51,197 nt of DNA, taken from positions 1 through 51,197 of the forward strand of contig CAIRBH010000002.1 in assembly GCA_903876765.1 (NCBI GenBank). Reading direction: 5' to 3'. The notes under the pieces were generated by a model, which ran no database searches, had not been told where the DNA came from, and saw only the letters and a list, made by a program, of their open reading frames with translations. A program made the translations under genes and the position numbers. Shown here one piece after another: positions 27,336-44,467 of the stretch (its first letter is position 1; each line of letters starts with the position of its first letter). The DNA comes from an uncultured Pseudomonadota bacterium (GTDB lineage: Bacteria > Pseudomonadota > Gammaproteobacteria > Burkholderiales > Methylophilaceae).

Positions 27336-27376
27336 ATCAGTCTCCATAGGTTTAAATTCCAATTCATTAGCGATAT

Positions 27377-29206
27377 TTATTCTGGGTGGAATAATAATCT
27401 AACACGCGTACCGCCTAGCCTTCTAGGAAGTATCTCTATTGTTCCACCTAAGCAGAGCGCGCGCTCGGTCATGATGGCTAAGCCATAATGATGTGGTTTA
27501 GCTTTATCAAAAGAGATGCCTTTGCCATCGTCATCAATCGTCACCACAATATCGCCTGAAGACTGCAACACCAGTGCTATGGTGACCTTCTCAGCGCCAG
27601 AATGACGTACGATATTAGACAATGCCTCTCTTACCACGTGTAGCAAATGAAACTCTTCGTTCACGCTCAATCTACATTCTTGCAGCCTATTGTCTAAGGT
27701 AATAGTTAAGCTCGACCTTTGTGAGAACTCCTCTATCGCTTCCTCTAGTACGTGATCTAGGCCTCGCACATCCATACGTACTCTAAAAGTGGTGAGCAAC
27801 TCACGCAGTTCACGATAAGCATTGTCTAAACCTTCACGCATATCATTAACGATGACTTCTGCGCCAGTGTCAATCAATTGCGTACTAAAGTTAGTCTGTA
27901 AGCGTGCCATTTGAAATTTCATATATGACAAAGATTGGGCCAGTGAGTCATGTAACTCTCTTGCAATCACAGCACGCTCTTCTAGTAAGGCAACGCGGCG
28001 ACTTTCTTGCTCTTTGGCTTGAAACCCCATAGACAATGCCAGCATTTGCGCAGTCACCTCAAATAACTGCAATTCAGCATCTTCAAAATAATGATTAGCC
28101 TCTGTCTCTAATAGCAAAATGCCTAACCAACCGCTGGGGCTGGGCAATGGTACCGTCACGCATTGCACACATTCACCTCTAATTAACTTGGTTTCTTGAT
28201 TGACCAGTTGGTGCTGATTGGTTTCGTCAAACATCTGCTCATCAAAAGTCAAAGGCATATAGCTTGAAAAAAGTGCACGCTGCGCGGAAATTCTAGAGCC
28301 TTTATCACTAAAAACCAAGGCTACATTACTGACGCCTAAAGTTCGCTCTAAGGAGTACAGCGTTTTTTTGAGGGTGGCCTCGCTTAAACCTGAGCTGCCT
28401 ATCAGTTTGGTCAGCTTCAACAAAAAGTCCTGGGCAAGAATCATTTTTCTCATTTTCTCAGCACTGGTTTTATTGATCCATTTTGTTTCCACTTGAATGC
28501 CTTCAAGGCGAGCGGCCATGCCAGAGGTTAATTTTTCCAGCAACTCAAATTCATCTTCAAATTTTTTGTTACTTTCTGTGAGCAGCAAATCTTTAGGTAC
28601 GGATGCAATTACCTTGCCTAGCCTATGTATTAAAATATTCCAGGACTGCAACATAATGCATGCAGCGGTGCAGAATACTAGTACCAAACATAGTAATTGC
28701 AGCAATGAGACCAGTGACTGCTTAATGATGACGTCTTTTTCTGCCGTGCTAACAAAGTTATTGTAGGCATGAATTACCGCCTGACCTTTATCTATTAATT
28801 GCTGCTTAGTTTCACCATGCACCCTTGCCATGGCAAAGTCGGCTCTTGCTGACAATAAATTCTTATATGACACGTCCAATTTCGTATCTTTTTGATTTTT
28901 AGCCCATATATACAAACCGTCTTCAAATTCACTTTGCGTCTCGTTGAGTCGATTGAAGATTTCATTTTTTTTATCGAAATTACTTTCTAGCTGGCTTACC
29001 CCAAGCTTCCATACTGATTGGTCTTGGTAGGCCTTGTGTATGATAGAAAGATGATCAGGAATGTAATCAAACAGAAATAGCGACCCCGCCTGCATCAATA
29101 ATACGGTAAGCACCATAGAGACAACTAAGGCATGCAAGTTTGCATAAAGCTTATGTTTCTTAATAAATTTACGTATTAGGATGAGAATGTTAGAAATATT
29201 TTGCAT
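27377..29206 (-). CDS. NarX-like membrane sensor histidine kinase
   Basis: A 609-residue kinase. TM1 is about residues 24-46, a helical periplasmic sensor domain about 48-160 (type IV PilJ-like, as in NarX), TM2 about 163-188, then HAMP, a GAF-like central region (about 255-395), HisKA_3 and HATPase. The phospho-acceptor His419 lies in ARELHDSLAQSLSYMKFQM, nearly the NarX sequence. The ATPase shows VREALSNIVRHS and IDDDGKGISF. Just after TM1 the NarX P-box AGSLR is represented by AGSLF (residues 40-44), so the arginine that holds nitrate in NarX is phenylalanine. The ligand is therefore unknown. AGAG precedes the ATG at 29204-29206. Confidence 0.88.
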   Translation of the reverse strand: MQNISNILILIRKFIKKHKLYANLHALVVSMVLTVLLMQAGSLFLFDYIPDHLSIIHKAYQDQSVWKLGVSQLESNFDKKNEIFNRLNETQSEFEDGLYIWAKNQKDTKLDVSYKNLLSARADFAMARVHGETKQQLIDKGQAVIHAYNNFVSTAEKDVIIKQSLVSLLQLLCLVLVFCTAACIMLQSWNILIHRLGKVIASVPKDLLLTESNKKFEDEFELLEKLTSGMAARLEGIQVETKWINKTSAEKMRKMILAQDFLLKLTKLIGSSGLSEATLKKTLYSLERTLGVSNVALVFSDKGSRISAQRALFSSYMPLTFDEQMFDETNQHQLVNQETKLIRGECVQCVTVPLPSPSGWLGILLLETEANHYFEDAELQLFEVTAQMLALSMGFQAKEQESRRVALLEERAVIARELHDSLAQSLSYMKFQMARLQTNFSTQLIDTGAEVIVNDMREGLDNAYRELRELLTTFRVRMDVRGLDHVLEEAIEEFSQRSSLTITLDNRLQECRLSVNEEFHLLHVVREALSNIVRHSGAEKVTIALVLQSSGDIVVTIDDDGKGISFDKAKPHHYGLAIMTERALCLGGTIEILPRRLGGTRVRLLFHPE

Positions 29207-29272
29207 ATTTTCTCTGGAAGTTTTTATACTCTATTACTATAACAACATGTGTTAAAAATTGGATCTATCACC

Positions 29273-30634
29273 ATGAGCATATTTATTTTTTCCACACTCA
29301 TCATTAGTATTATTTTCTTTGTCATATTAGGCTCATGGTACAGCATTCAAGGGCCTTTTTTACTGCATATTGTCATGATAATTTCTGCTGCCGTTGCTAT
29401 CTTTTCTGCTGCCGTTGTTACTGTCATACAACCTTTATTCAGCTCAAAAAAATCACGCGTTAGTCAAAACTTAAACCAAGAGTCCGCATGGGGGCGAGAA
29501 GTTTCTAGTACATTATCCTCACCAGCGGCCATACTTGATGGCTTCGTAGTTAAATTCATCAATACGCCCTTTCTACAAACTTTGGGCATGGCCGATATGG
29601 CTGACCAAATCATAGGTATGCCATTTACCAACTTGATACATCCTGCTGACCATCAAAGCTTTGCAAATCTTAGCGCTGAAGCAGCAACTGGCAAAATTCA
29701 AAATGACCCAACTAAGATACGCCTAGTATGCGCCGATGGCACTACAGTGCCATCTAATGCCAGCCTCACACTTATGCGAGAAAAGGGGCAAAATAATCTC
29801 AACCTATTCCAGTTCACCCCCATTTCTGCCATCAGTCCTTTAACCAATGATTTTGAATCGCAATTTAACTACCATTTAATTATCGACAGACTTGACGAAA
29901 TTGTCTTTCAACTTAGCGCCGAAGCTAAAGTGATTTTCCTCAACCCCTCTTGGACAAAATTGCTTGAATATAATGTGCAAGATTGTCTTAATAAATCACT
30001 ATTAGATTTTTTTCACCCAGAAGATCGCCCCATGCTTGAATCAAGGTTAGATTCTCTAACCCAAGGCAAAAGATCTCATTGCACCATAGAAGCAAGACTG
30101 CTAACTATCCATGGCTACCCAAGCTGGATAGTTATGCGGGCTAAAACTACATCGGTTTCAGTTGGAGAACGCACCAGCGTCATTGGCACCATGACCAGTA
30201 TACAAAATAGTAAAGAAGCAGACGCAAATAAATTGGCGAGCCGTCGATCATCTAACTCGCTACTGAGTAATATTCCTGGGATGTTGTATCGATGTAGAAA
30301 TGACCCTTCATGGACTTTCGAGTTTGTTGGTGACGGCTGTATAGACATTACTGGCTATGACCCCTTAGAGCTAATTGATAACCGAAACGTCACTTTTAAT
30401 TTAATTATTCACCCTGAAGACCGAGCGCCAGTGTGGGAGTCTGTCAAACAGCAGATTAGCTTGGGTGAAAAATTTAAGCTGATTTACCGCATAGTCACAC
30501 GTAAAGGCGAAACAAAGCTGGTGCTAGAGCATGGTCGAGGCATTTTCTCTAGCACGGGTGAGCTATTAGCGTTAGAAGGGTTTATTACCGAAATCCCTGA
30601 GCCAGAATATAGAGTCAACTCCACACTCAATTAA
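29273..30634 (+). CDS. Membrane-anchored multi-PAS protein without output domain
   Basis: A 453-residue protein with two N-terminal hydrophobic segments (SIFIFSTLIISIIFFVILG and HIVMIISAAVAIFSAAVV). Three PAS-like modules follow, recognisable by ADQIIGMPFTNLIHPADHQSF, VFQLSAEAKVIFLNPSWTKLL...DFFHPEDRPM and PSWTFEFVGDGCIDITGYDPL...IHPEDR. No GGDEF, EAL, kinase or HTH follows the last PAS. The frame is also open from a GTG at 29249; the ATG at 29273 directly precedes the membrane helix and is preferred, though neither has a strong ribosome-binding site. It is divergent from the NarX-like kinase and convergent with the N-demethylase genes, suggesting an accessory sensor role (inferred). Confidence 0.75.
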   Translation: MSIFIFSTLIISIIFFVILGSWYSIQGPFLLHIVMIISAAVAIFSAAVVTVIQPLFSSKKSRVSQNLNQESAWGREVSSTLSSPAAILDGFVVKFINTPFLQTLGMADMADQIIGMPFTNLIHPADHQSFANLSAEAATGKIQNDPTKIRLVCADGTTVPSNASLTLMREKGQNNLNLFQFTPISAISPLTNDFESQFNYHLIIDRLDEIVFQLSAEAKVIFLNPSWTKLLEYNVQDCLNKSLLDFFHPEDRPMLESRLDSLTQGKRSHCTIEARLLTIHGYPSWIVMRAKTTSVSVGERTSVIGTMTSIQNSKEADANKLASRRSSNSLLSNIPGMLYRCRNDPSWTFEFVGDGCIDITGYDPLELIDNRNVTFNLIIHPEDRAPVWESVKQQISLGEKFKLIYRIVTRKGETKLVLEHGRGIFSSTGELLALEGFITEIPEPEYRVNSTLN

Positions 30635-30659: not shown

Positions 30660-31700
30660 TTACTCAGGCTGAGTGCCGACCGACAAGGTTTCCCCGTCAT
30701 CAAATTGAGATAACCATTCGACCATCATTGGGTGAAATTTAGTCATGCCCTTATATTCCACTAGATCAGGATGCATGGTTTTTTGCACACGGTGCAAACG
30801 CTTTGCCCATCTAGGATAAGTTGCAAGCTCTTTGAGGCTAATCAAATAGCAGCGAATGCTGAACACAATGCCGTTGCTACGTGGCAACCTAAACAGCGAC
30901 TGCAACTCAACTCGCAGATGTATTTTATCTTCGATATTCTCGGGATTCACAGTATTCCTATCCGTCCCCCATAGCGGGTAGTTTTCTGGTGATGTATCCA
31001 AACGCGGATTAACCGTCATCGTCCAGTTTAATCTGCGTACTGGGCTCCCTAATTGAATATTCATCAAATATTTAAGCGCCCTATCCATGACGCCTAGCTC
31101 AGTTGCACGCGGCACTGGTGCATGCCATTCTCGCCAAGACATGCCCACATCAAAGGCTAGCGACCAGTCAGCTTGGCTAGTGACAAACCCGCCATCGGCA
31201 TACAAAGTATCATCACGCTGATCTAGCAGCACAAAATCACCTTGCACTTGCCGGCTCATATATTCAAAAGGGTCCATAGGCATGGTAGAGGCATCGCCAA
31301 ACACAAAGCTATGCTTGATGTTGAGTGGTTTATTTTCCCATGTCCAGTTTAGCCCATCTTTCTTTAAAGAAAAATGTTCAGGGTAATCATTTGCCAAAGC
31401 CTCCATAGTGAGCTCAACAAAGTCCCATTGTGCATCCATCATGTGCGGTAAGACTGCATATCTACCGCGATCTAAATCCAGCGTAATCTGCTTGTCTAAG
31501 CACTCCCCAACGTAGTGCTCATCTACATCAAAAGCAAATTCACAGACACTACCTGGCTTACCTTTGACATGGGGCTCTATGTTCACCGAGTACATGTATT
31601 GATCTTCGGCAAATGGAAACGGAAAGCGTTTGATCGCATCTTGAGAATTGCTATAGTCATAATTATCACGAAACGTTTCTTTTTTAAATGCTAAGGGCAT
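30660..31700 (-). CDS. Heme-dependent oxidative N-demethylase subunit (DUF3445; dimethylamine monooxygenase)
   Basis: A 346-residue DUF3445 protein, the family of the catalytic heme subunit of heme-dependent oxidative N-demethylase/dimethylamine monooxygenase, which oxidises dimethylamine to methylamine and formaldehyde with O2 and NAD(P)H. Conserved-looking segments are CEFAFDVDEHYVGECLDKQI, DFVLLDQRDDTLYADGGFVT and SPVRRLNWTMTVNPRL...VELQSLFRLPRSNGIVFSIRCYL. The frame opens at an ATG five codons upstream (31715), but AAGGTG precedes the ATG at 31698-31700. It is the third gene of an operon with a flavin/2Fe-2S reductase and a DmmA-like protein. No GcvT-like fourth subunit is in the window. 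Confidence 0.82.
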   Translation of the reverse strand: MPLAFKKETFRDNYDYSNSQDAIKRFPFPFAEDQYMYSVNIEPHVKGKPGSVCEFAFDVDEHYVGECLDKQITLDLDRGRYAVLPHMMDAQWDFVELTMEALANDYPEHFSLKKDGLNWTWENKPLNIKHSFVFGDASTMPMDPFEYMSRQVQGDFVLLDQRDDTLYADGGFVTSQADWSLAFDVGMSWREWHAPVPRATELGVMDRALKYLMNIQLGSPVRRLNWTMTVNPRLDTSPENYPLWGTDRNTVNPENIEDKIHLRVELQSLFRLPRSNGIVFSIRCYLISLKELATYPRWAKRLHRVQKTMHPDLVEYKGMTKFHPMMVEWLSQFDDGETLSVGTQPE

Positions 31701-31758
31701 TATGTTCACCTTCATTTTGATGTTTAAGACCAGATGATCTTAAATTTACTCTATTACG

Positions 31759-32712
31759 CTAAAGATCTAAAACCAATTTTTGACATCTAGCTCGAGACAC
31801 ACAGGGCATGATTTTTTTACCCGAAGCTTTTTCCGCGTCAGTCAAGAAGTGATCGTGATGCAACAATGCACCATCAGATTCGAGCACATCGACTTCACAG
31901 CGGCCACAAACCCCGCCTCTACACAAATAATCAGCTTCTACGCCCGCCAATTCAATGGCTTCTAGCATGCTCATATCGGCTGGCACGTGCACTTCTATTT
32001 CCGATTTTTTAAGATGAATTTTAAATGGCTCGCCTACACCAGGTGATAAAAACTGCTCGCTATGTATAGTGTTATCTGGCCAGCCTAAATTTTTTGCCGT
32101 TTCAATCACGGCAACAACCATAGGATTAGGCCCGCAAACATAAACGTGGGTACCTAATGGCTGCTTGCTTAATAAAGCCAACAGATCAATGCGCCCACCT
32201 TGACTATCGGTGTAGCAACGTAATTGACTGCCATAACTGGCTTTTAACTGATCAGCAAACGCCCCATGCTCGGGTGATCGATAGGCGTAATGCAATTCAA
32301 AATTTGCATTTAATCTATGCAAATCAAATAATTGCGACATAAACGGCGTAATGCCGATGCCGCCAGCAATTAAAATATGTTTATGTGCCTTTTTTGCCAA
32401 TGCAAAAAGATTGACGGGGTAGGTAATTTGCAAGGAACTGCCAACCTCAATACTTTCATGCATGAAAAGAGAACCACCTCTTGAATGCTCTTGCTTACGC
32501 ACTGAAATGTGATAGGCGCTTGTATCTGCTGGTGAACCCATTAAGGAATATGGGTTGCGAAAAACTCGACCACCGACATTCATGGATACCACCACATGAC
32601 TACCACCTGAAAAAGCGGGAAACGCCAAGCCGTCCTGCCTCACAAAAGTAAAATGTTTCACCAGCGGTGTTACTTGCTCAACAGCAGCCACCTTTACATC
32701 TATCATGCTCAT
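31759..32712 (-). CDS. FMN/2Fe-2S oxidoreductase subunit of dimethylamine monooxygenase (VanB/phthalate-reductase type)
   Basis: A 317-residue PDR-family reductase. The flavin-binding segment is RNPYSL, nicotinamide binding is LIAGGIGITPFMSQL and YVCGPNPMV, and the C-terminal plant-type ferredoxin domain has cysteines in YLCRGGVCGRCEVDV plus PCVSRA. It passes electrons from NAD(P)H to an oxygenase. The gene overlaps the upstream DmmA-like gene by 4 bp and precedes the heme subunit gene by 58 bp, making it the electron donor for that enzyme by context. Alone, the sequence would be annotated only as an oxygenase reductase. Confidence 0.85.
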   Translation of the reverse strand: MSMIDVKVAAVEQVTPLVKHFTFVRQDGLAFPAFSGGSHVVVSMNVGGRVFRNPYSLMGSPADTSAYHISVRKQEHSRGGSLFMHESIEVGSSLQITYPVNLFALAKKAHKHILIAGGIGITPFMSQLFDLHRLNANFELHYAYRSPEHGAFADQLKASYGSQLRCYTDSQGGRIDLLALLSKQPLGTHVYVCGPNPMVVAVIETAKNLGWPDNTIHSEQFLSPGVGEPFKIHLKKSEIEVHVPADMSMLEAIELAGVEADYLCRGGVCGRCEVDVLESDGALLHHDHFLTDAEKASGKKIMPCVSRARCQKLVLDL

Positions 32713-33305
32713 GGATATATTTCCTCAATTTCAGGTAAATCGCCAGGAGATTCAGCATCTACCATTAAGCCCATATAAGCGCCTAAATGACGAGAAAAAT
32801 GGTCTCGCACAAATAGCATACGCCCACAACCGCTGCATTTACCGATATTGGTCGTGACATCATGGGTAATAGCCTTGCAATGCACGCAATAAATCGGTCT
32901 TGCCAGCGTACCAGTGAGCTCCTTCATCATGCCAGCATCTTCAATGCCAAACTTATTCGCCACTTTTGCTACCGTCCACATAAAATCTTCTGACCCTGCA
33001 ATGTAAAGCCGCATACCCATATACAGGGTGTGTAAGGTGCTATCTAGTTTTTGCAGAATTTTTTCTTCCGTGTCCAAAATATGCAAGCCCTCAGGCACTA
33101 CTTTTAACAAGGTTTTAGAATAATCTGCATCGGATTGTGGTGTGTAGAGCACAGTGATAGGCTGCTTGGGATGCATGAGTTGCAACAGCTTCAAGACTGC
33201 CATACCGCCCTGCCCCTGCGCAACGATTAAATGTGATGTGGCTTTTTCATGCCAGAGCAGTGATGTATAAACTGGCTTACTTCTAATCCAATACCCGCGT
33301 TCCAT
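32709..33305 (-). CDS. dmmA: DmmA-like dimethylamine monooxygenase subunit
   Basis: A 198-residue protein. The N-terminal two-thirds has a Rossmann-like pattern (SHLIVAQGQGGMAVLKLLQ and ITVLYTPQSDADY). The C-terminal zinc-ribbon-like region has two CxxC pairs, YCVHCKAITH and KCSGCGRMLFVRDHFS, ending in HLGAYMGLMVDAESPGDLPE. This layout fits the small dimethylamine monooxygenase subunit family named DmmA-like in domain databases. It is the first gene of the operon: AAAGG lies upstream of the ATG at 33303-33305, and a NarL-type palindrome is centred about 200 bp upstream. The symbol rests on family resemblance and context. Confidence 0.72.
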   Translation of the reverse strand: MERGYWIRSKPVYTSLLWHEKATSHLIVAQGQGGMAVLKLLQLMHPKQPITVLYTPQSDADYSKTLLKVVPEGLHILDTEEKILQKLDSTLHTLYMGMRLYIAGSEDFMWTVAKVANKFGIEDAGMMKELTGTLARPIYCVHCKAITHDVTTNIGKCSGCGRMLFVRDHFSRHLGAYMGLMVDAESPGDLPEIEEIYP

Positions 33306-33496
33306 AATTAACCTTTCTTGCCTTTAGAAAGCGCTTTGCATAGACAAATTATGCCAGCCAGCTTGATGTGCTCTTGTTGATTACTTAATTTGAATACTGC
33401 CACTTTGGCTATTTTCCCTACTTTGAATGTTGATATTATTAAATATTGCCTACACAGTATCGGAATAGAAAAATAGAGAAAATTCTCATGAAGGTG

Positions 33497-33512
33497 TACT
33501 ACCTAAGAGGTA
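33497..33512. promoter_or_regulatory. NarL-type 7-2-7 operator A (dmm operon)
   Basis: TACTACC-TA-AGAGGTA matches TACYYMT-N2-AKRRGTA at 12 of 14 informative positions, and the right half is perfect. It also contains CTACCT-AAG-AGGTAG as an exact inverted repeat. On the minus strand it is followed 7 nt downstream by ATGAGAATT, shared with operator C at the same spacing. Centre about 200 bp upstream of the dmmA-like ATG. Confidence 0.65.
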
Positions 33513-33535
33513 GAAAATTGTCTGGTAATGAATCT

Positions 33536-33595
33536 AAATAAAAACGCTAGCAATGCATTGATGGTTGCGTCTTAGCCCATCAATACATTCTAGCG
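33536..33595 (-). terminator. Terminator of the tmd-etf operon
   Basis: A long near-perfect stem: 33545-33564 (CGCTAGCAATGCATTGATGG) against 33577-33595, about 19 bp with one bulge and one mismatch. On the minus strand TTTTTATTT follows. It lies 36 bp beyond the etfA stop. Confidence 0.87.
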
Positions 33596-33631
33596 CATTA
33601 TACAAATTGACTATTTGTAAGCCTTTTGTGA

Positions 33632-34597
33632 CTAAGCTGCTAATTGGTTATTGAGCTCTTCTTCAAAATCAAAAATATCAGCCACTATGCCGTACTTAGC
33701 AATACTAAAAATCGAGGCACTAGGGTCAGTATTAACGGCAACGATGGTCGGCACATGCTTCATGCCAGCCATGTGCTGAATTGACCCAGAAATGCCTAAA
33801 GCCACATAAAGCTTGCATGAACCAACAACTTTGCCAGACTGCCCCACTTGCCTTGATTTTGGTAGCCAGCCTGCATCGGCAATCGGACGTGAGCAGCACA
33901 GCGTAGCACCCGCAGTTTCGGCCAATTCTCTAAACTGTTCAACGTTGCTCTCTTCACCAATGCCGCGACCAATAGACATAATAAAGTCCACCGTAGTGAT
34001 ATCTATATCATTGCCGCCACCTAACTCAACAAAGCCTTTATTTTGGCTACGCGACTGCACGGTTGGCAAATTAAACTGCGTGATTGTCGGGCTGCTTGCA
34101 CCTTCTAAAGGTTTAAACACACTGGCACGTATAGTCATGAGCACTATACTTTTGTCTGGAAAATCTACTTCAACATTCACTTTTTGATTATACCCGCCGC
34201 GAGTTGCGACTAAATCAGCGCCTTGATACTCCGCCATAAACACGTCGGTGGCAAAGCCATACCCCGCCTGACTTGCCAATGTAGCCGCATACCCCAAGGA
34301 ATCTACTGAATGTGGCAGCAAGACCACGCTAGGCTTATTAACCTCAATCAAAGCTGATACCGCAACTTGATATATATCTGGATCAAATTCCGCAACAGCT
34401 GCGTCAACCACGACGACTTCATCCACCCCAGTCACAGACAATGCGGCGGCAAAGCTCTGCGCCTGACTGCCAATCACAGCAACCATGACCTGGTCATCGG
34501 CTGATTTTTTCAAGCCTTGTGCTGCGGCAATCAGCTCAAAACTGACTGGGCGCAACTCTTGACGGCGGTGTTCGGCAATTACCAAAATTGTACTCAT
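33632..34597 (-). CDS. etfA: Electron transfer flavoprotein alpha subunit
   Basis: A 321-residue EtfA. Domain I (about residues 1-190) and the C-terminal FAD domain are recognisable: CCSRPIADAGWLPKSRQVGQ, then GISGSIQHMAGMKH and IVAVNTDPSASIFSIAKYGI. From memory it is highly similar to the W3A1 ETF alpha subunit, the physiological electron acceptor of trimethylamine dehydrogenase. It is the last gene of the tmd operon, 2 bp after etfB, followed by a strong terminator. Confidence 0.95.
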   Translation of the reverse strand: MSTILVIAEHRRQELRPVSFELIAAAQGLKKSADDQVMVAVIGSQAQSFAAALSVTGVDEVVVVDAAVAEFDPDIYQVAVSALIEVNKPSVVLLPHSVDSLGYAATLASQAGYGFATDVFMAEYQGADLVATRGGYNQKVNVEVDFPDKSIVLMTIRASVFKPLEGASSPTITQFNLPTVQSRSQNKGFVELGGGNDIDITTVDFIMSIGRGIGEESNVEQFRELAETAGATLCCSRPIADAGWLPKSRQVGQSGKVVGSCKLYVALGISGSIQHMAGMKHVPTIVAVNTDPSASIFSIAKYGIVADIFDFEEELNNQLAA

Positions 34598-34599
34598 GT

Positions 34600-35394
34600 T
34601 TAAACTCCTTTAAATTCGTTCATAATTTGAATCAACTTTGCCGCCTGTTCCGCAATCGTGCCTTCTATCATCTGTGCACGTCCTTTAGATGGAATATACA
34701 TGCGACGAACTCGTGACATAGAATGAGTCGCCCCTACATCTGCCGCAGATAGGCCAATTTCAGACAGTGACATTTGCTCTATAGCTTTGGCTGCAGCTTG
34801 TTTGATACCCCTTAATGATGCGTATCTTGGCTTGTTAATACCTAATTGTATGGTCAATACCGCAGGGCAGTTAATCTCTACTTCTTGCAACAAACCACCT
34901 TCTAACTCACGGCGGATTAGCGCGCTTTGATTACCCGGTTGATATTGCAAATTGGCAACCACAGCGGCATGCGGCCAATTAAGATAAGCTGCTGTTGAAA
35001 TGCCAGTAGCCGCGTAAGCTTGATCCGAGGACTGAACCCCAGCAAACAGCATATCAGGGGCTTCTTTTTGTGCAACTGCCGCCAGTATGCGGCCTATGGC
35101 GATAGCATCTGAGCCTTCAATGCTGTCATCCCAAATCCTAATGGCACGATCAGCGCCTTTAGCTAGACATTTACGCAAACTTTCATCCACCCGATCTGGG
35201 CCGACAGACACCACGACCACTTCAACTTCTGAGGCGCTAGCTTCTTTAATTTTCATGGCTTCTTCAAGCGAAAAGTCGTCCCACTCATTTAAGTCGTATA
35301 ACAAAAAATCCTCATCTACATCTTTTTCATCTGCGCGGATTTCAAAGTCTTCATCTAATGCCGCCACTTGCTTTACTGCAACTAAAATTTTCAT
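34600..35394 (-). CDS. etfB: Electron transfer flavoprotein beta subunit
   Basis: A 264-residue EtfB starting MKILVAVKQVAALDEDFEI, the same N-terminus as the W3A1 ETF beta subunit as remembered. It contains LLYDLNEWDDFSLEEAMKI, FAGVQSSDQAYAATGIS and the signature-like INKPRYASLRGIKQA. The frame extends ten codons further upstream (to 35424, overlapping the repeat-protein gene), but the ATG at 35392-35394 has GGAG about 9 nt before it and gives the family start. AMP/FAD-binding partner of EtfA. Confidence 0.95.
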   Translation of the reverse strand: MKILVAVKQVAALDEDFEIRADEKDVDEDFLLYDLNEWDDFSLEEAMKIKEASASEVEVVVVSVGPDRVDESLRKCLAKGADRAIRIWDDSIEGSDAIAIGRILAAVAQKEAPDMLFAGVQSSDQAYAATGISTAAYLNWPHAAVVANLQYQPGNQSALIRRELEGGLLQEVEINCPAVLTIQLGINKPRYASLRGIKQAAAKAIEQMSLSEIGLSAADVGATHSMSRVRRMYIPSKGRAQMIEGTIAEQAAKLIQIMNEFKGV

Positions 35395-35420
35395 ACTGGT
35401 TTTCTCCATGAAACTAAATA

Positions 35421-36824
35421 TCAAGCACTACTTTTTATAAAACGATTTGCAAAATAACTCAAGGCAGTAAATCTGACCTGATAATCGGGGTCCAAACACA
35501 ATGGCCATTTATCTTTATCTGGCAATCTATGATTAGCCACCAGCATTAAGCGATGCAAATAATAGTCATCTTGCAACAAAGCTAACAATGTCAGGCGTGT
35601 CGCACTCTTATTTAAAATAACACCGCGTCTTACATCTGCCGCCGCAGATGCGCTTAATTTTTTTAATATTGACTGCGGTGTATTTGGGTTATTGGCCACC
35701 CCACTTAGTACATCTAGCGAACTATCTTGCGCGAGATTTTTCAATAAGCGCTTGCTAGCTTTACCTTGGTAAGCCACTGCGGAGCGCACCCAATCATTAT
35801 CATCATTAGCCAACACACTCAATAACCTTAACGGGCAGCTAGCATTTCTAGCTACCCCACGTCGCACATCGACAGCGGAGTCTTTAGACAGTTTATCTAG
35901 CACGCTACTAGCAACAATCGGGTTACGAGCCAACTTTTGCCTAACCCAAACGTCAGTGTCATGTATTAAGTGGCTAATCGTGGCTGCCGTTAAATCAACT
36001 CTAGTTGCTATCAAGCGCCTCACTAGCTCACATTCATCAATGGCTAAGCGCCTGATAAGTGCTTGAGAAAGCGCTAAATTTGCTGCCAATCTACAACGCA
36101 CCGCCTTATCTTGCTGCAAAGCCAAACTTGCCATCAGCTTGTGGCTAATGCGTTTATCTGCGGCCAGTTGCCGTTGAATTAACACGTTTTCATCATATAC
36201 GACAGCCTCAATCAACTGTGCTGGGCAGTGATCATGCGCTATCACGGCTGCTTTAATGCGAACATCTGGCAGCTCAAACAAATGCACTAGCAAGTCAATT
36301 GTTGCAGCGGGATGTTGGCTTATATTTTTTTGTAATGCCTGCAATATATGAGTGTTAGCAAATCTATCTAGCAAAATAGCGAACGCCTCGCTGGTTGCTG
36401 CCATATTTTTACTCAGGGCCAATACCGTCGCTTCATCCTGCTCAAACTGGGCAATATGCTTTAACATTGCGGGCGAAGCATGTCTATGTTGGGCAAGTAA
36501 AACCGTCATATTTGAACGACTTTTACTCATTAGGCCTTGCGCAACATAAAGCTTAGATAATGCTTCTGACGGCGTATTCTGGTTCTTGTCTAATTTAATC
36601 ACCATCGCTTCATCAGCTACACTAGCCAAAGCTTCTAACACCAATGCTGGCGTATGTTCCCAACGGGCCAGTGCTAAGGCATCTCGGCGTCGACTAAACA
36701 TCATCGCTTGTAACTTGGTCTTATCTTTATCCTCGGCAATCGCATATACAGCTGCAGCCATATACGGATCATTTGCTTTCAATGCTAAGTTGACTAATCC
36801 AGCAGCACTGTCAGGTAGTTGCAT
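35421..36824 (-). CDS. Variant leucine-rich repeat (LRV/HEAT-like) protein in the TMADH-ETF operon
   Basis: A 467-residue helical repeat protein of unrecognised specific function. In the C-terminal half about six units of 25-26 residues follow one another, with the pattern VRxxVAxNxxxPxxxLxxLAxDxxxx. Examples are VRQKLARNPIVASSVLDKL, VRRGVARNASCPLRLLSVL and VLSGVANNPNTPQSILKKL. The N-terminal half has more diverged units. This resembles the variant leucine-rich repeat (LRV) family; the Azotobacter LRV protein carries an Fe-S cluster, but no cysteine cluster is visible here. The gene begins 1 bp after the ETF-dehydrogenase-like gene stop and precedes etfB by 26 bp, so it is co-expressed. An assembly or interaction role is inference. 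Confidence 0.75.
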   Translation of the reverse strand: MQLPDSAAGLVNLALKANDPYMAAAVYAIAEDKDKTKLQAMMFSRRRDALALARWEHTPALVLEALASVADEAMVIKLDKNQNTPSEALSKLYVAQGLMSKSRSNMTVLLAQHRHASPAMLKHIAQFEQDEATVLALSKNMAATSEAFAILLDRFANTHILQALQKNISQHPAATIDLLVHLFELPDVRIKAAVIAHDHCPAQLIEAVVYDENVLIQRQLAADKRISHKLMASLALQQDKAVRCRLAANLALSQALIRRLAIDECELVRRLIATRVDLTAATISHLIHDTDVWVRQKLARNPIVASSVLDKLSKDSAVDVRRGVARNASCPLRLLSVLANDDNDWVRSAVAYQGKASKRLLKNLAQDSSLDVLSGVANNPNTPQSILKKLSASAAADVRRGVILNKSATRLTLLALLQDDYYLHRLMLVANHRLPDKDKWPLCLDPDYQVRFTALSYFANRFIKSSA

Positions 36825-36825
36825 A

Positions 36826-38952
36826 TCACGCTGTCACAGCACTGTCTTCCCAAACTTCATATTCAACGCATTCGTCAATTAACTCAATGAGCTCACGCAC
36901 CACAAAGCGGCCTTCATAGCCTGAAGTTTTAAGCGCGTCTTCAAACATGGTCAAATCTTTGGGACATGACACCACAAACACCTGCAAGCCTTCAATCTGC
37001 CCCGCTTCTTTCATGCGGTTAGCCGAAGGCTTCTCTAAGCCTACTGGGTCAGGTATCCAAATGCGGCCACCGCCAGCCCCACAACAGAATGAGTTATCGC
37101 GATTTCGTCCCATTTCAACCAATTCACAGCCCAATAATTTCAATACTTCACGCGGTGCGTCAAAACCTTTGTTATAACGGCCTAAATGGCAAGGGTCATG
37201 AAAAGTGACTCGGCAATCTAGCTTCTTCTTTAGTTTGATTTGACCAGTTTCAATCAAACGCTTGACCAAAGTCGTATAGTGCTCAATCTCAAATTGGCCA
37301 CCAAAATCAGGGTACTCATTACGTATGGTGTTAAACGAGTGCGGATCTGTGGTGACAATAGAGGCAAAATCACAAGCTTGCAGCGTGCCTATGTTAGAAG
37401 ATGCGAGAAGTTCATATAGGCCTTCCTCCCCAACTCGACGCACATCATTGCCCGCGTTTAACTCGGCTTCAAATAACAGGCCAAAATCCACGCCAGCATG
37501 CTGCATTAGCCTAGCAAATGACTTGGTCACTTTTTGGTTACGCGGGTCAAAAGAGGCGTAGTCGCCAACAAACCACAATATATCTACAGGCTCAGTGCGC
37601 GCATCTTTTACTTCAAATGGCAGTTCTTTGGTCCAAGCGGCACGCTTGCGTTTAGATTCACCAAATGAATTGCCAGTTTTATGTATGGTTTGTAGAGTTT
37701 TTTCTAGCAAAGGCTCCATTTCACCTGCTTCCACCAAATTGCGTCGCATCTGCACAATAATCGGCACATGCTCTACCGCTACTGGGCATATCTCTACACA
37801 AGCTAAACAAGTCCGGCATGACCAAAGTGTTTCCATAAACACCTGACCTATGCCTTTGCCATGAATATCCAGCTCGGCCTCTTTGGGTAATTCTTTGCTG
37901 CTCAAAGCGTGATTGGCAAACTCTCTTAATGAAAGTATGACGTCTCTTGGTGACAATGGGGCGCCAACGGCATTGGCTGGGCAAGCCTCTTGGCAGCGGC
38001 CACATTTGGTACAGGCATCAAGGTGCAGCAGGTTTTTCCAAGTCAGGTCGGTAATGGTTTTGTAACCCGCTGTTTTTTGCTCATCAGGCACCATGGGCAG
38101 TCTTCTGCCAGCTAGAGGATCTTTAAACATCAAGGAACTGGCGGCGGTGAAAATGTGTTTGATTTTGCTATAGGGAATACAAGCAATAAATGTCAAAGAA
38201 AGTAAGCCGTGAAACCACCACAAGTAGGGACGCAATACACCTGCACTTTGATCTGTTAAGCCTAAGCCATGCATAATTTCAGCGAGCAAAGCGCCTACTG
38301 GTGACCAAAAGCGATAATCCCAAACTGTTGCTTGCTCACTCAGCCAAACCAAACGGCTAGCCTCTAAAATAAAGCCAGTGATGCCAATTAATATGAATGA
38401 CCAAAGAAAAGCCCAATCTTCACGGCGATATTGGCTGCGATCAAAGTCAGGGTCGCCTGGCTGCCTATCGACTCTTTTGTAATCCAGCTTAGGTAGATTC
38501 AGCCATTGCCGCCTATACATCATATAAAGCAGGCCGACTATTAAACTTAAACCGGCTACATCGAGCACGAGTGAGAATATTAAATAAAAATTACCATACC
38601 AGAACTTAATGCCAAACAAGGGTTCAAGGATGTCATATTCCAGCGTAATGGTAGATGTGCCAATGAACAACAACACAAAACCCAAGAATATCAAGCCATG
38701 CGCACGCCCTGCACTTTTGTCACGGCGCACCAAGGTACGATGCGTGGCCATGGTTTTAAGCATATCAACAAAACGACCAAACAGCTCGTTCCAAGAGCCA
38801 TCGGCCTTGCCACGACGATATTTGCGAATTTGTACAAAAACGCCATAAATGAAAATTGCAATGGCTAAGTAACCGATGGCATAGAATAAATGTATTGCCT
38901 GTGGTTCAAAGCTCTCAAACAGCACTCGAGTGATTTGTTTTGCATTATCCAT
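36826..38952 (-). CDS. Membrane (Fe-S) ETF:quinone oxidoreductase-like protein (EMO/DUF224 type)
   Basis: A 708-residue three-part protein. Residues 1-270 hold about six membrane helices of the nitrate-reductase-gamma/HdrE type with candidate heme histidines. Residues about 305-410 carry two 4Fe-4S motifs (CTKCGRCQEACP and CRTCLACVEICP). The rest is a heterodisulfide-reductase-like domain with HDPCHLGRYNKG and the CCG motif FCCGAGGGRIW. This is the architecture of membrane ETF:(methyl)menaquinone oxidoreductases. Located between tmd and etfBA, it is the natural exit for ETF electrons into the quinone pool. CGGAGC precedes the ATG at 38950-38952. Confidence 0.82.
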   Translation of the reverse strand: MDNAKQITRVLFESFEPQAIHLFYAIGYLAIAIFIYGVFVQIRKYRRGKADGSWNELFGRFVDMLKTMATHRTLVRRDKSAGRAHGLIFLGFVLLFIGTSTITLEYDILEPLFGIKFWYGNFYLIFSLVLDVAGLSLIVGLLYMMYRRQWLNLPKLDYKRVDRQPGDPDFDRSQYRREDWAFLWSFILIGITGFILEASRLVWLSEQATVWDYRFWSPVGALLAEIMHGLGLTDQSAGVLRPYLWWFHGLLSLTFIACIPYSKIKHIFTAASSLMFKDPLAGRRLPMVPDEQKTAGYKTITDLTWKNLLHLDACTKCGRCQEACPANAVGAPLSPRDVILSLREFANHALSSKELPKEAELDIHGKGIGQVFMETLWSCRTCLACVEICPVAVEHVPIIVQMRRNLVEAGEMEPLLEKTLQTIHKTGNSFGESKRKRAAWTKELPFEVKDARTEPVDILWFVGDYASFDPRNQKVTKSFARLMQHAGVDFGLLFEAELNAGNDVRRVGEEGLYELLASSNIGTLQACDFASIVTTDPHSFNTIRNEYPDFGGQFEIEHYTTLVKRLIETGQIKLKKKLDCRVTFHDPCHLGRYNKGFDAPREVLKLLGCELVEMGRNRDNSFCCGAGGGRIWIPDPVGLEKPSANRMKEAGQIEGLQVFVVSCPKDLTMFEDALKTSGYEGRFVVRELIELIDECVEYEVWEDSAVTA

Positions 38953-39030
38953 TTAGCTCCGCCTACAGATGGGTATTACGTATGAGTGATTATTAGGATT
39001 TTTTTGATGATTAAATGACACAAGTTAAAT

Positions 39031-39063
39031 CAAGCTCGCCGCAAACAGTCTACAGCGAGCTTG
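39031..39063 (-). terminator. Hairpin between tmd and the Fe-S oxidoreductase gene (attenuator or processing site)
   Basis: A perfect 9-bp stem, CAAGCTCGC (39031-39039) with GCGAGCTTG (39055-39063), around a 15-nt loop, 12 bp beyond the tmd stop. On the minus strand the downstream tract is ATTTAAC, a poor T-run. Partial termination or a 3'-end stabiliser for tmd mRNA is more likely than full termination. Confidence 0.6.
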
Positions 39064-39074
39064 ACAGCACTCAT

Positions 39075-41327
<2,253 letters not shown>

Positions 41328-41349
41328 CTAAACAATAACCCTCATGGCT

Positions 41350-41365
41350 TACTACTTAGGTGTTA
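41350..41365. promoter_or_regulatory. NarL-type 7-2-7 operator B (tmd)
   Basis: TACTACT-TA-GGTGTTA fits the NarL 7-2-7 pattern at 10 of 14 positions (left half 6 of 7) and differs from operator E by only two bases. Centre about 90 bp upstream of the tmd ATG. On the minus strand ATGAGGGTT follows, like the ATGAGAATT of operators A and C, but 3 nt closer. Confidence 0.55.
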
Positions 41366-41390
41366 CTAAAAACTGGGGTGGGGAGCCCAT

Positions 41391-41425
41391 AAAAAAGCGA
41401 GCGGACATTACGCCCGCTCGCTTTT
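41391..41425 (-). terminator. Terminator after the APC permease gene
   Basis: A 12-bp perfect stem, AAAAGCGAGCGG (41393-41404) with CCGCTCGCTTTT (41414-41425). On the minus strand the second arm continues into TTTTTT. It separates the permease transcript from tmd, which must have its own promoter in 41268-41390. Confidence 0.9.
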
Positions 41426-41445
41426 ATTTAAAACAAATCATTCAA

Positions 41446-43143
41446 CTACATACTATGCAAATACCAAACCAAGGCGATACCTGCAACTAGTGCGATATAG
41501 GGCAGCAACCCCGCTTTGTTTGAAACGCCAGCCTCATCAACAAATAAGTGCATGTCATCCAACATTTGTGCGGGAAATACGCCCTTATCTTGAATAAAGT
41601 GACGATAAACAAATACTGGAAGTATCAAAGCGGCAAATATTAATCCAGCTTTTAATGTACCAGCACCCCACGTGTCAGCACCCAAACCCATGATACCTAA
41701 ATTAACGAAGCCAAGTAAACCGCCTAGCACCAGCAATATAGTCGGCGCTTTGTAGGGCCTATCCCATGTTGGTCGGTCGATACGATGTATCCAACCTGCG
41801 TTAAGGTTTAAGAAGTTGAAAATGATATAACCTACGTTTGATGCTGCAAGAATAAACACATAATCTGACATCATCAATAATAGTAAATTAAAGCAAAGAT
41901 CTGTCCACATCGCTCTGGTTGGTGCGCCATGATCGTTCACATGTGACAAATACTTAGGTAACCAGCCGTCTACAGATGCTTGATAAAGTGTACGTGATGA
42001 GCCTGCCATAGATGTCATGATAGAGAGCATTAAGGCAAGCACCATCATGATAACCATCAGATTAGCCACAAATGCACCACCACCAATAATATCTGAAAAT
42101 GCCGCTGCCACGCCCATGCCACTATAGATTGACGCCTCCAGCATACCATCATAAACCGCTGGCGTTGTTACCACACCAGCCGCATCTACCACCGCAGGGG
42201 TGACCATGTGACCCAAGCCCAAATGACTTTGGAAGGCAATAGGCACTAAGGTAAACACTGCCACACAGAGTAAGCCAGAATAAAAAATAGCTTTAAAAGT
42301 ATCTGATTTAGGGTTTCTAAATTCCCGCGTATAACACACGGCAGTTTCAAAACCATAGGTAGACCAAGCAGCAATAAATAAGCCGCCCGCCATCAACTTC
42401 CAACCGTCGATATTCCAAACACCGTCAATGACGTTACCTGCTGCATCATGAGCCAGTGGCGCTAATGGAAAAAAGTTTGCTTGTGCAATATCGCCAGTCA
42501 TTAATGGCACTAACCCAATCAGCATCAAAGGTATTAATGCAATAACGCCAAGTATCATGGTGGTTTTAGCAGAGCGCAAGATGCCGCCGTGTTGTACTGC
42601 AAATACGGACAGCAAAACAGCCGCGCCGACAACAAAGGTGGCATTAATTCTTAACACTAGGCCATCTTTAATCATACCTAAGTCTAACAAGGTAATCTGC
42701 CAAGTATTAATCACAGCGTCAGGTGCAAACAAGGCACTAAGCATATAGCCTGCGGCTAAGCCTGAGCCTATGGCTAGCACTGGCGACCAAGCAAACCAAT
42801 TACACCAAACGGATACGGGGGCAATAAATTTACTGTATTTCACCCAGGCTACCGCCCCATAAATTGAAGCCCCGCCTGATTTATGCGGAAACAAACCCGC
42901 AATTTCCGCATAAGTAAACGCTTGAATAAAACCAAATGCAATGGAAATAGCCCATATCATCCATGCTGGCTTACCTACTGTCGCAGCAATCGCACCGATT
43001 GAAAATAAAACAAGTGCAGGAACGCCACTCGCCACCCAGAAAGCACCTTGCCAGCCAATTTTTCTGTGTAACGTTGCATTTTGCCCGACAACGTTATCAG
43101 AAAGATCAGCTGAAATTGCATCAACCGAAGAATTTGCACTCAA
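41446..43143 (-). CDS. APC-superfamily permease (probable methylated-amine transporter)
   Basis: A 565-residue transporter with about twelve hydrophobic helices. Its N-terminal region has WQGAFWVASGVPALVLFSIG, FTYAEIAGLFPHKSGGASIYG (helix 3, typical of APC carriers) and WSTYGFETAVCYTREFRNPK. The sequence alone says amino-acid/amine permease. The position next to tmd, with an operator of the same class upstream (operator C), makes trimethylamine or a related methylamine the likely substrate. That is inference. A strong terminator follows. Confidence 0.8.
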   Translation of the reverse strand: MSANSSVDAISADLSDNVVGQNATLHRKIGWQGAFWVASGVPALVLFSIGAIAATVGKPAWMIWAISIAFGFIQAFTYAEIAGLFPHKSGGASIYGAVAWVKYSKFIAPVSVWCNWFAWSPVLAIGSGLAAGYMLSALFAPDAVINTWQITLLDLGMIKDGLVLRINATFVVGAAVLLSVFAVQHGGILRSAKTTMILGVIALIPLMLIGLVPLMTGDIAQANFFPLAPLAHDAAGNVIDGVWNIDGWKLMAGGLFIAAWSTYGFETAVCYTREFRNPKSDTFKAIFYSGLLCVAVFTLVPIAFQSHLGLGHMVTPAVVDAAGVVTTPAVYDGMLEASIYSGMGVAAAFSDIIGGGAFVANLMVIMMVLALMLSIMTSMAGSSRTLYQASVDGWLPKYLSHVNDHGAPTRAMWTDLCFNLLLLMMSDYVFILAASNVGYIIFNFLNLNAGWIHRIDRPTWDRPYKAPTILLVLGGLLGFVNLGIMGLGADTWGAGTLKAGLIFAALILPVFVYRHFIQDKGVFPAQMLDDMHLFVDEAGVSNKAGLLPYIALVAGIALVWYLHSM

Positions 43144-43336
43144 TTTAAGTCCCCTTTTTTATAAAAATCCCAATACAACCCCTGTACTTAATAACGGAAT
43201 TGTCCACCTGGGTGCAGCTGTAAAATCAGTTCTTTCACTTAATTAAATTAAAAAAATCTACGGCGTCTATATAAAACTTTCCGCATGGTTTACATTTGAA
43301 GGCAATCAACTGCTCTGTACAATTCTCATTATGGAT

Positions 43337-43352
43337 TACTCTTAAAGTAGTA
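43337..43352. promoter_or_regulatory. NarL-type 7-2-7 operator C (permease)
   Basis: TACTCTT-AA-AGTAGTA matches TACYYMT-N2-AKRRGTA at 12 of 14 positions (6 of 7 in each half). Centre about 200 bp upstream of the permease ATG, the same distance as operator A from its gene. On the minus strand ATGAGAATT follows at the same 7-nt spacing as in A. Confidence 0.65.
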
Positions 43353-43423
43353 TATATTGAAGGTCTGCTTGGTTTATTATTGTGCATTATGACTATCTTG
43401 CCTAAATACCTATAGCGACTCAA

Positions 43424-43439
43424 TACTGCTTAGGTATTA
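43424..43439. promoter_or_regulatory. NarL-type 7-2-7 operator E (truncated haemoglobin)
   Basis: TACTGCT-TA-GGTATTA, 14 of 16 bases identical to operator B, 10 of 14 to the NarL pattern. Centre about 97 bp upstream of the haemoglobin ATG, comparable to B and D (85-90 bp). Confidence 0.5.
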
Positions 43440-43528
43440 CGCCTTGAAGATAATGTTTGTAAGCATAAGCTCTGATTACTATTGCATCAGTTATATTTAT
43501 TTAAACATTCAGCACCAGAAAGCGATCA

Positions 43529-43945
43529 ATGGCGAACATGCAACCGTCCAACTACCAAGCTAGCAATGCGTCTTTATATGACTTGCTTGGTCGCGAGGCT
43601 GGGGTATTGAACTTAGTAAAAGTGTTTTATGACATGGTGGAAAGCGAACCGTTTGCGCACAAACTACTGTTATTACATCTCAGAGGGAATGGTTTAGCTC
43701 ACTCACGTGTTGAACAATTTCATTTTCTTTCAGAGTTTTTAGGTGGCCCAAGGTTATATGTTGAAAAACATGGTCATGCTAATATTAAAGCCATGCACGA
43801 ACACCTTGCAATTGACGCTGAATCTAAAGATATTTGGCTGCAATGTATGAATATGACGATAGATAAAATAAAACTAGAAGCGAGCATTAAAAACCAACTC
43901 ATGGTCAGCTTTACCCGTGCGGCTGAACGCTTAGTTAATACATAA
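43529..43945 (+). CDS. Group II truncated haemoglobin
   Basis: A 138-residue 2-over-2 globin. Features are the B-helix tyrosine in KVFYDMVESEP, the proximal histidine in IKAMHEHLAI and the group II G-helix tryptophan in DIWLQCMNMTIDK, with the preceding GGPRLYVEKHGHANI. Group II globins bind O2 or NO; roles proposed elsewhere include oxygen delivery and NO or peroxide detoxification. The gene stands alone between the permease and the cupin, with an operator of the shared class upstream. This suggests expression together with the amine-oxidising enzymes, one of which consumes O2. Confidence 0.88.
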   Translation: MANMQPSNYQASNASLYDLLGREAGVLNLVKVFYDMVESEPFAHKLLLLHLRGNGLAHSRVEQFHFLSEFLGGPRLYVEKHGHANIKAMHEHLAIDAESKDIWLQCMNMTIDKIKLEASIKNQLMVSFTRAAERLVNT

Positions 43946-43976
43946 AAAAAACATCTGCAATTGACTTGCAGATGTT
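43943..43976 (-). terminator. Terminator after the methylamine-island cupin gene
   Basis: AACATCTGCAA (43950-43960) and TTGCAGATGTT (43966-43976) form an 11-bp stem around TTGAC. On the minus strand seven to eight Ts follow, so it serves the cupin gene at 44021. In the plus direction (haemoglobin gene) the T-run is poor. Confidence 0.82.
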
Positions 43977-44020
43977 ATTCATCAAAACAGTATGTAGCGA
44001 TTAACTAGATTAGCAATGAA

Positions 44021-44374
44021 CTACAAAGGTGCACGTTGGCCGCAGAAGAATCCTACTGCAAAATCTGGAGTTTCAAAAGTAATGCGGCTGCCTGAGGGGA
44101 AATAAAATACGTCACCAGCAGTCGCTGTGACTTTTTGACCAGTTTCATCTGAAATAATGAAAGTGCCATCGACGATGCATTTCATTTCTTCATAATCATA
44201 GTCATATACTAATTTATCGCCTTTTTCTAAACGAAAAAAACCAGCACAAATTCTTTTATCTGGGTCAGCTGATACAAAAGTATCGCCCAACCAAGCTGGA
44301 ACACCAGGAATATTCATAGATGGTTGCGCATCTTTGATTGCTTGTTTTTTATAATGAAAGCCTTTTGTTGCCAT
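44021..44374 (-). CDS. EutQ-like cupin protein
   Basis: A 117-residue cupin with RICAGFFRLEKGDKLVYDYDYEEMKCIVDG (residues 41-70 approximately) and ATAGDVFYFPSGSRITFE, followed by FAVGFFCGQRAPL. It resembles the ethanolamine-utilisation EutQ/DUF861 cupins. The aspartate/tyrosine-rich YDYDYEE replaces the histidines of a classical metal-binding cupin. A strong GAGGAG ribosome-binding site precedes the ATG at 44372-44374, operator D is centred about 85 bp upstream and a terminator follows. It is thus a single-gene unit in the amine island. Function unknown. Confidence 0.8.
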   Translation of the reverse strand: MATKGFHYKKQAIKDAQPSMNIPGVPAWLGDTFVSADPDKRICAGFFRLEKGDKLVYDYDYEEMKCIVDGTFIISDETGQKVTATAGDVFYFPSGSRITFETPDFAVGFFCGQRAPL

Positions 44375-44451
44375 TCGTTCTCTCCTCTAGGTTGTTTAAC
44401 TGTTGTACATTTAATCGTGAAGCGTTTGCATGCACAATTACTCTTAAGTTG

Positions 44452-44467
44452 TACTCCTAAAGAAGGA
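44452..44467. promoter_or_regulatory. NarL-type 7-2-7 operator D (cupin)
   Basis: TACTCCT-AA-AGAAGGA is the best match of the set, 13 of 14 positions, with a perfect left heptamer. A second heptamer-like TACTCTT (44439-44445) lies 13 nt away. On the minus strand AGAGTAATT occupies the place of the ATGAGAATT flank seen at A and C. Centre about 85 bp upstream of the cupin ATG; hpnC begins 120 bp away on the other side. Confidence 0.65.

Follow-up and report, generated by a model that had tools for sequence, protein, structure and literature searches.

Why should genes for the breakdown of methylated amines be accompanied by palindromes that look like operators of the nitrate regulator NarL? The question is raised by a stretch of 51,197 nucleotides, here called the window, from contig CAIRBH010000002.1 of an uncultured member of the Methylophilaceae (assembly GCA_903876765.1; genome G000, a 1.91-Mb draft in 53 contigs, about 90% complete). 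The window contains a dimethylamine monooxygenase (dmm) operon, a tmd-FeS-LRV-etfBA operon, a gene of the trimethylamine N-oxide (TMAO) permease type and genes for a truncated haemoglobin and an EutQ-like cupin. Next to these amine genes are encoded a response regulator of the NarL family, a kinase resembling NarX and a three-PAS-domain protein. The OYE protein encoded by tmd we take to be trimethylamine dehydrogenase, as an earlier reading from sequence alone had named it; no family model used here bears that name. In all likelihood, this two-component system of NarX/NarL descent activates the catabolism of trimethylamine and dimethylamine, and in some lineages also of methylamine, via the palindromes. 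A look-alike of a nitrate regulator thus appears to have been re-purposed for the control of methylated amines in several bacterial groups.

The five palindromes, A to E (Table 1), are genuine. The sequence-only reading had given their positions and letters exactly and had rightly called them intergenic; their fit to TACYYMT-N2-AKRRGTA is also as claimed, with 13 of 14 positions for D, 12 for A and C, and 10 for B and E. The textbook NarL consensus, when used as a search pattern, performs near background: at up to three mismatches it finds 53 places in the window versus 42.9 expected from shuffles of the window (standard deviation 6.4; 8 of 100 shuffles reach 53), and it misses B and E. A refined motif, TAMYNCYWWRGNRKTA, fits better; C and D deviate from it at one position each. 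The 7-2-7 spacing and the outer TAC/GTA are common to the NarL operator and these sites, but positions 5-8 differ from the E. coli consensus.

A palindromic matrix built from 18 sites upstream of tmd in other genomes, which included no window site, ranks A, B, E, C and D as the five best places in the window, the next one scoring 9.7. Four sites score at least 12, a value reached on average 0.25 times per Markov shuffle (60 shuffles; mean best score 10.7, top shuffle 21.0). The ranking is not wholly independent, because the 18 sites had been chosen with a first matrix that contained window sites. Site D would be weak if it stood alone, since it barely exceeds the next place. Searched through its own genome, the first pattern with two mismatches allowed proved useless (715 forward and 673 reverse matches versus 920 and 879 for the reversed control); exact matches alone were useful. 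TAMYNCYWWRGNRKTA occurs exactly at five places, i.e., A, B, E, position C31:34244 on another contig and one place within an open reading frame that is presumably lpxC-like. Amine promoters hold four of these five, and it is the placement of the matches, not their total, that is non-random in this genome.

The match at C31:34244 precedes an operon for sarcosine-oxidase-like subunits, a glutamine-synthetase-III homologue and a glutamate-synthase-like protein, i.e., the N-methylglutamate pathway of methylamine oxidation. The regulon, as read here, extends beyond the window to the methylamine (mgd) operon. The names mgd, gmaS and mgs are our assumption, made by analogy with Ruegeria (PMC13390433).

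Are the sites kept in relatives? The best 80 of 139 related tmd loci were scanned over their whole length with a 24-site matrix; the matches at tmd are partly there by construction, since 18 of the 24 sites came from tmd. The window Tmd protein is 88-97% identical to that of the Methylophilaceae loci found (Methylotenera, Methylophilus, Methylovorus, Methylobacillus and others). In 23 of 24 loci of this family (L025-L044, L082, L083, L088, L104) a site lies 88-108 bp upstream of the tmd start, the exception being L104 (same contig as L168), where a permease copy directly precedes tmd. Loci of Methylophaga, Hyphomicrobium and Zoogloea also have tmd sites. Not due to construction are those upstream of permease, dmmA (7 loci) and globin orthologues and of some cupins, and many permease orthologues display the same arrangement of site and promoter. 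The conservation upstream of tmd and dmm orthologues that the sequence-only reading had proposed to check is thus found, and permease, globin and, in some lineages, mgd genes share it. Position and register are conserved over alpha-, beta- and gammaproteobacterial loci, and both are established computationally.

For 33 of the 80 tmd loci the whole genome was searched for the regulator. It was found with at least 64% identity in 11 genomes, with 53-58% in 12, and in 10 no copy was detected at E 1e-45. A site scoring at least 13 within 250 bp of tmd is present in 10 of the 11, in 4 of the 12 (L045 being borderline at 13.8) and in none of the 10. In ten regulator-positive genomes, 29 of 41 exact matches fall within amine clusters, a figure to be read with caution, as the clusters were defined after the matches had been seen and the binomial p ignores kinship. 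G213 has two further exact matches, one before a dmd-like gene and the other before a gene for an Amt-family transporter. A strong site before an Amt-family transporter gene is seen in Methylophaga sp. OBS4 (L290:2062-2077). In Paraburkholderia and Caballeronia, which belong to the 53-58% group with a regulator of about 55% identity, a looser palindrome, TACCCACTCGGAGGTA (TAC-N10-GTA), stands before the dmm reductase gene (L061, L063, L065, L071, L097; around 8600-8690).

The co-occurrence of regulator, tmd and sites was counted in 187 Methylophilaceae genomes, with E 1e-75 or better defining the regulator and at least 88% identity defining tmd (two partial genes included). The regulator was found in 37 genomes and tmd in 30, with an overlap of 28; in other words, 28 of 30 tmd genomes have the regulator versus 9 of 157 others. 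The mean number of pattern matches is 5.11 with and 1.64 without the regulator; for the reversed pattern the values are 4.73 and 3.00. The contrast persists within the genera g1, g31 and g33 (one-sided p 2e-6, 6e-4 and 0.02, kinship ignored); g35 has a single regulator-positive genome. Two of the nine regulator genomes lacking tmd were opened (G094, G101): regulator, kinase, PAS protein, permease and dmm genes lie together, and sites precede a GcvT-like gene, mgd, the permease and a trimethylamine monooxygenase gene. The association of regulator, site and gene is likewise a computationally established one. It is the placement of the sites, together with the contrast to regulator-negative genomes, that carries the argument.

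The methylamine branch behaves less uniformly. The gene mgdA is present in 49 of the 187 genomes, and all 49 upstream regions were scored with a matrix that includes the G000 mgd site. A site of at least 13 is found in 16 of 31 with the regulator versus 1 of 18 without it; the control with reversed sequences yields 0 of 49. Membership of mgd in the regulon appears to be lineage-specific, since 10 of 13 regulator-positive genomes of the genus Methylotenera (g1) pass versus 6 of 18 elsewhere. A PuuR-like XRE-cupin gene (e.g., L165:11443-12090) tracks mgdA in 49 of 49 genomes and is a candidate for an mgd-specific regulator.

A prominent characteristic of the sites is their fixed register to promoter-like elements. 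All five window sites share one layout: palindrome, 14 bp, a -35-like hexamer, 17 bp and a -10-like hexamer, the hexamers being weak at A and E. Summed matches of A-E to TTGACA and TATAAT reach 32 of 60 at offset 14, the best of 60 offsets (mean 17.7, standard deviation 5.0). The 14-bp linkers are 57% identical in pairs, versus 27% for random intergenic 14-mers, and none of 5000 draws was as high; together with the TA before them they resemble a second, degenerate site of the 7-2-7 type. When 20 tmd promoters are aligned, the stretch from the palindrome to an ATTG element is gap-free. Of 35 tmd loci, nearly all of them chosen for having a site, 31 have a TTGT that starts 14 bp beyond the palindrome; 29 of these show GANAAT or GAGATT on the far side of the 17-bp spacer, L030 and L064 being one base off. 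The remaining four comprise L047 with TTGC, L048 and L053 with TTGG, and L052, where the matrix chose another place and the register is visible beside a damaged left half-site. Away from tmd, 58 distinct entries of site and orientation have their TTG peak at offset 14 too (21 cases; other offsets at most 8). If the -10 hexamers are real, the centre of the palindrome would lie at -57.5. The sequence-only reading had distinguished two classes of distance to the start codon; they do exist (about 200 bp for A and C, 85-98 bp for B, D and E), but, since all five sites are equally spaced to the hexamers, the classes look like leader lengths of probably about 140 versus 30-40 nt.

Which protein may bind there? 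The linked regulator matches the NarL structure 1a04 at E 3.6e-66, and the NarL recognition-helix core TVKVHxKH is retained, as had been noted: TTVKVHIKH here versus STVKVHVKH in NarL, with TTVKVH[IV]K across the rows of its clade. In a tree of 78 sequences it belongs to a clade of 37 rows (support 100/100) that excludes E. coli NarL as well as the nar-linked NarL of the family. The clade comprises the fetched Methylophilaceae regulators of at least 68% identity plus those of Methylophaga and Hyphomicrobium; for five of the 37 regulator-positive genomes (G093, G095, G096, G097 and G140) there was no fetched copy. The order of the deeper forks is weakly supported, and the tree carries long-branch flags. 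The family's NarL-like proteins of about 40% identity, which likewise lie outside the clade, carry helices of the STVKIHVQ type; in G002, G006, G007, G016 and G017 they are encoded close to narG. The separate clade is established by this computation. The window regulator scores above the cut-off of the NCBIfam NarL equivalog (279 versus 250 bits), and that model would therefore name the protein NarL despite its linkage to amine genes. In G017 (L166:7984-13691) narG and narXL-like genes have a dmd-like gene as neighbour; next comes an open reading frame of 109 amino acids that resembles the C-terminal part of the regulator.

The kinase has lost the P-box, the nitrate box of NarX. Where E. coli NarX has AINKAGSLRMQSYR, the window kinase has IHKAYQDQSVW. 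The box is missing from the aligned kinases of the clade and present in E. coli NarX, a Zoogloea kinase and the narG-linked kinase of G017; as a strict P-box pattern missed the latter, the alignment was used in its place, and by it the loss is computationally established. In 21 aligned kinases F44, L45, D47 and Y48 of this neighbourhood are invariant, and W66 is nearly so. An AlphaFold model of the kinase has a mostly helical N-terminal half, with low confidence overall (predicted template-modelling score, pTM, 0.35; mean predicted local distance difference test score, pLDDT, 73.5). A Foldseek search with it returned kinase-type structures of poor whole-length fit among the 50 matches listed and was uninformative on the sensor region. 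A homologue of the PAS protein lies beside kinase and regulator in 19 of 20 regions inspected.

The mechanism might then be envisaged as follows. The palindromes would be the operators of a system made up of regulator, kinase and membrane PAS protein. The phosphorylated regulator would bind TAMYNCYWWRGNRKTA as a dimer, with the midpoint some 57.5 bp before the transcription start, and a degenerate second site, which shares the palindrome's outer TA, would abut the weak -35 element. Binding would activate the uptake permease, trimethylamine dehydrogenase, dimethylamine monooxygenase and, from the other contig, the N-methylglutamate pathway. The regulator as the binding protein, activation and the transcription starts are inferred, as is a methylated-amine-related signal in place of nitrate. 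The positive sign is suggested by sites that lie upstream of weak -35 elements, and the signal by the targets and the lost P-box; it could equally be trimethylamine, dimethylamine, methylamine or a later product. More tentatively, and with less than even odds, one may imagine that the nitrate box gave way to a conserved motif close to the membrane, containing acidic and aromatic residues (F-L-x-D-Y plus a W 18 residues further on), by which the kinase itself would detect methylammonium cations. The PAS protein would then be a third component, and gene transfer would have carried the switch along with its operators between methylotrophs of the beta-, gamma- and alphaproteobacteria.

Several observations weigh against this reading. 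TAMYNCYWWRGNRKTA was written after the sites had been seen, and the matrix was partly trained on tmd sites. The total of exact matches in G000 is 5 versus 7 for the reversed pattern, i.e., there is no excess. Across the family, regulator-positive genomes barely exceed the reversed-pattern control, which itself is higher there, and genomes and clusters are related, so that counts are not independent. G087 (90% complete) and G198 (78%), the two genomes with tmd in which no regulator was detected, hold 6 and 5 pattern matches; both assemblies are incomplete, and the tmd contig of G087 ends inside an HODM-like gene, just short of the position of PAS protein, kinase and regulator in relatives (L030). 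Of the mgdA promoters with the regulator, 15 of 31 score below 13 (three of them 10-13), and G010, without regulator and 6% contaminated, has a strong mgdA site. The register is not universal either: the -35-like hexamers of A and E are devoid of TTG, Methylotenera mgd sites have other registers, the mgd palindrome abuts TTGAC directly in five g30 genomes, and the cupin sites of L035, L036 and L040 deviate from the -35/-10 spacing. Finally, Zoogloea has a tmd site, yet its nearest regulator (57%) adjoins a kinase with P-box (L048, L267); it is possibly an intermediate. On balance, the earlier proposal of a methylated-amine regulon under the linked NarL-family regulator is supported by site conservation, co-occurrence, the separate clade and the P-box-less kinases; its motif needs correction at positions 5-8, where the sites depart from the E. 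coli consensus.

Could the pair simply be a nitrate-responsive NarX/NarL that co-regulates amine oxidation with nitrate or denitrification? The bit score mentioned above would fit, the kinase matches NarX/NarQ profiles, albeit below cut-off, and G017 has narG, narXL-like genes and a dmd-like gene as neighbours. Globins, too, often accompany nitrogen oxides. However, narG is present in 33 of the 187 genomes and in just 9 of the 37 regulator-positive ones; it was not found in G000, for all its 90% completeness, nor in the one-contig genomes G011, G013 and G105. In the amine-linked kinases the P-box is missing, whereas E. coli NarX and the G017 kinase linked to narG keep it; the family's NarL-like proteins near narG form a distant clade with a different recognition helix, and no site scoring at least 13 is found in the 19.9-kb stretch of G017 that contains narG. 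We consider this explanation very unlikely.

Another regulator of amine genes could bind the sites, e.g., the XRE-cupin beside mgd or an AraC protein like TmaR. Indeed, an AraC regulator governs the pathway in Ruegeria (PMC13390433), and in Methylophilus methylotrophus an EutR-like AraC gene (L294:1922-2956) adjoins a site, where it possibly forms part of a cascade. The XRE-cupin, the candidate whose distribution was surveyed, is disfavoured as the binder: it occurs in all 49 mgdA genomes (50 of 187 overall) with or without the palindrome and, being present near mgd regardless of the site, does not explain it. It was also not found in five regulator-positive genomes with 4-8 pattern matches (G022, G105, G115, G162, G183). 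Moreover, the palindrome retains the outer bases and the 7-2-7 format of NarL sites, and the two-component genes are the recurring regulatory neighbours of the amine genes, which makes a different binder very unlikely. Chance resemblance in AT-rich intergenic DNA might be argued from the background-like performance of the E. coli pattern in the window and from the single one of 60 Markov shuffles with a best score of 21.0; conservation of position and register across three proteobacterial classes and the co-occurrence with the regulator reduce it to practically nil.

In many clusters, as at 35421-38952 of the window, the genes between tmd and etfBA encode a large 4Fe-4S/CCG protein and one with LRV repeats, which perhaps provide a path for electrons from ETF to quinone.

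Table 1. Sites, proposed targets and regulatory genes in the window
Feature	Position	Strand	Remarks
NarL-family response regulator (receiver + GerE helix-turn-helix), proposed DNA binder	26697..27362	-	Pfam PF00072, PF00196
NarX-like HisKA_3 sensor kinase without NarX P-box	27377..29206	-	profile matches, alignment, model
Three-PAS-domain protein, proposed accessory sensor	29249..30634	+	hydrophobic N-terminus, divergent from kinase; likely start ATG 29273
dmm operon (DmmA family, reductase, HODM alpha-like), proposed target	30660..33305	-	profile matches
Site A, 5' of dmm operon	33497..33512	-	rank 1, score 20.9; -35-like TTTTCT 33477-33482, -10-like TACTGT 33454-33459
tmd operon (trimethylamine dehydrogenase-type OYE protein, Fe-S/CCG protein, LRV protein, etfB, etfA), proposed target	33632..41267	-	
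Site B, 5' of tmd	41350..41365	-	rank 2, score 20.3; -35-like TTGTTT 41330-41335, 17-bp spacer, -10-like GAGAAT 41307-41312
TMAO-type permease, proposed target	41446..43143	-	NF053774, 838 bits versus cut-off 690
Site C, 5' of TMAO-permease-type gene	43337..43352	-	rank 4, score 13.1; -35-like TTGTAC 43317-43322, -10-like TCAAAT 43294-43299
Site E, 5' of truncated haemoglobin	43424..43439	+	rank 3, score 14.4; poor -35-like TGTTTG 43454-43459, -10-like TACTAT 43477-43482
Truncated haemoglobin, proposed target	43529..43945	+	
EutQ-like cupin, proposed target	44021..44374	-	
Site D, 5' of EutQ-like cupin	44452..44467	-	rank 5, score 10.2, weakest of the five; -35-like TTGTGC 44432-44437, -10-like TTAAAT 44409-44414

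Trimethylamine dehydrogenase is a classic enzyme, for which a candidate regulator, an operator and a promoter register are here defined that can be tested in culturable methylotrophs. The name NarL, as derived from NCBIfam, would seem to mislead for the whole clade. If the amine-regulon reading is true, the system exemplifies how the scaffold of a nitrate sensor can be re-tuned to a different signal. The open-access literature, covered mostly by titles and abstracts and with subscription journals largely outside, yielded no NarL-type regulator of trimethylamine dehydrogenase.

How does the system compare with known ones? In Ruegeria pomeroyi TmaR/TmoR jointly control the catabolism of trimethylamine, dimethylamine and methylamine (tdm, dmm, gmaS-mgs, mgd), much as proposed here, and TmaR responds to a methylamine product; TmaR, however, is of the AraC type, whereas the window regulator lacks an AraC helix-turn-helix by Pfam and has a GerE-type one (PMC13390433). 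The abstract and Results of that paper contain no mention of two-component, response regulator, NarL, LuxR, palindrom- or Methylophaga. DmfR of Paracoccus aminophilus is likewise a LuxR-family activator in a pathway for a methylated nitrogen compound, but it governs dimethylformamide amidase genes (PMC4543880). The E. coli NarX/NarL pair is built similarly: a receiver-GerE regulator with the same recognition-helix core, a 7-2-7 palindrome with TAC...GTA ends and a HisKA_3 kinase with an N-terminal region predicted to be mostly helical. The window system differs from it by its separate clade, the P-box-less kinase, motif positions 5-8, the weak link to nitrate reductase genes, the amine targets and the linked PAS protein.

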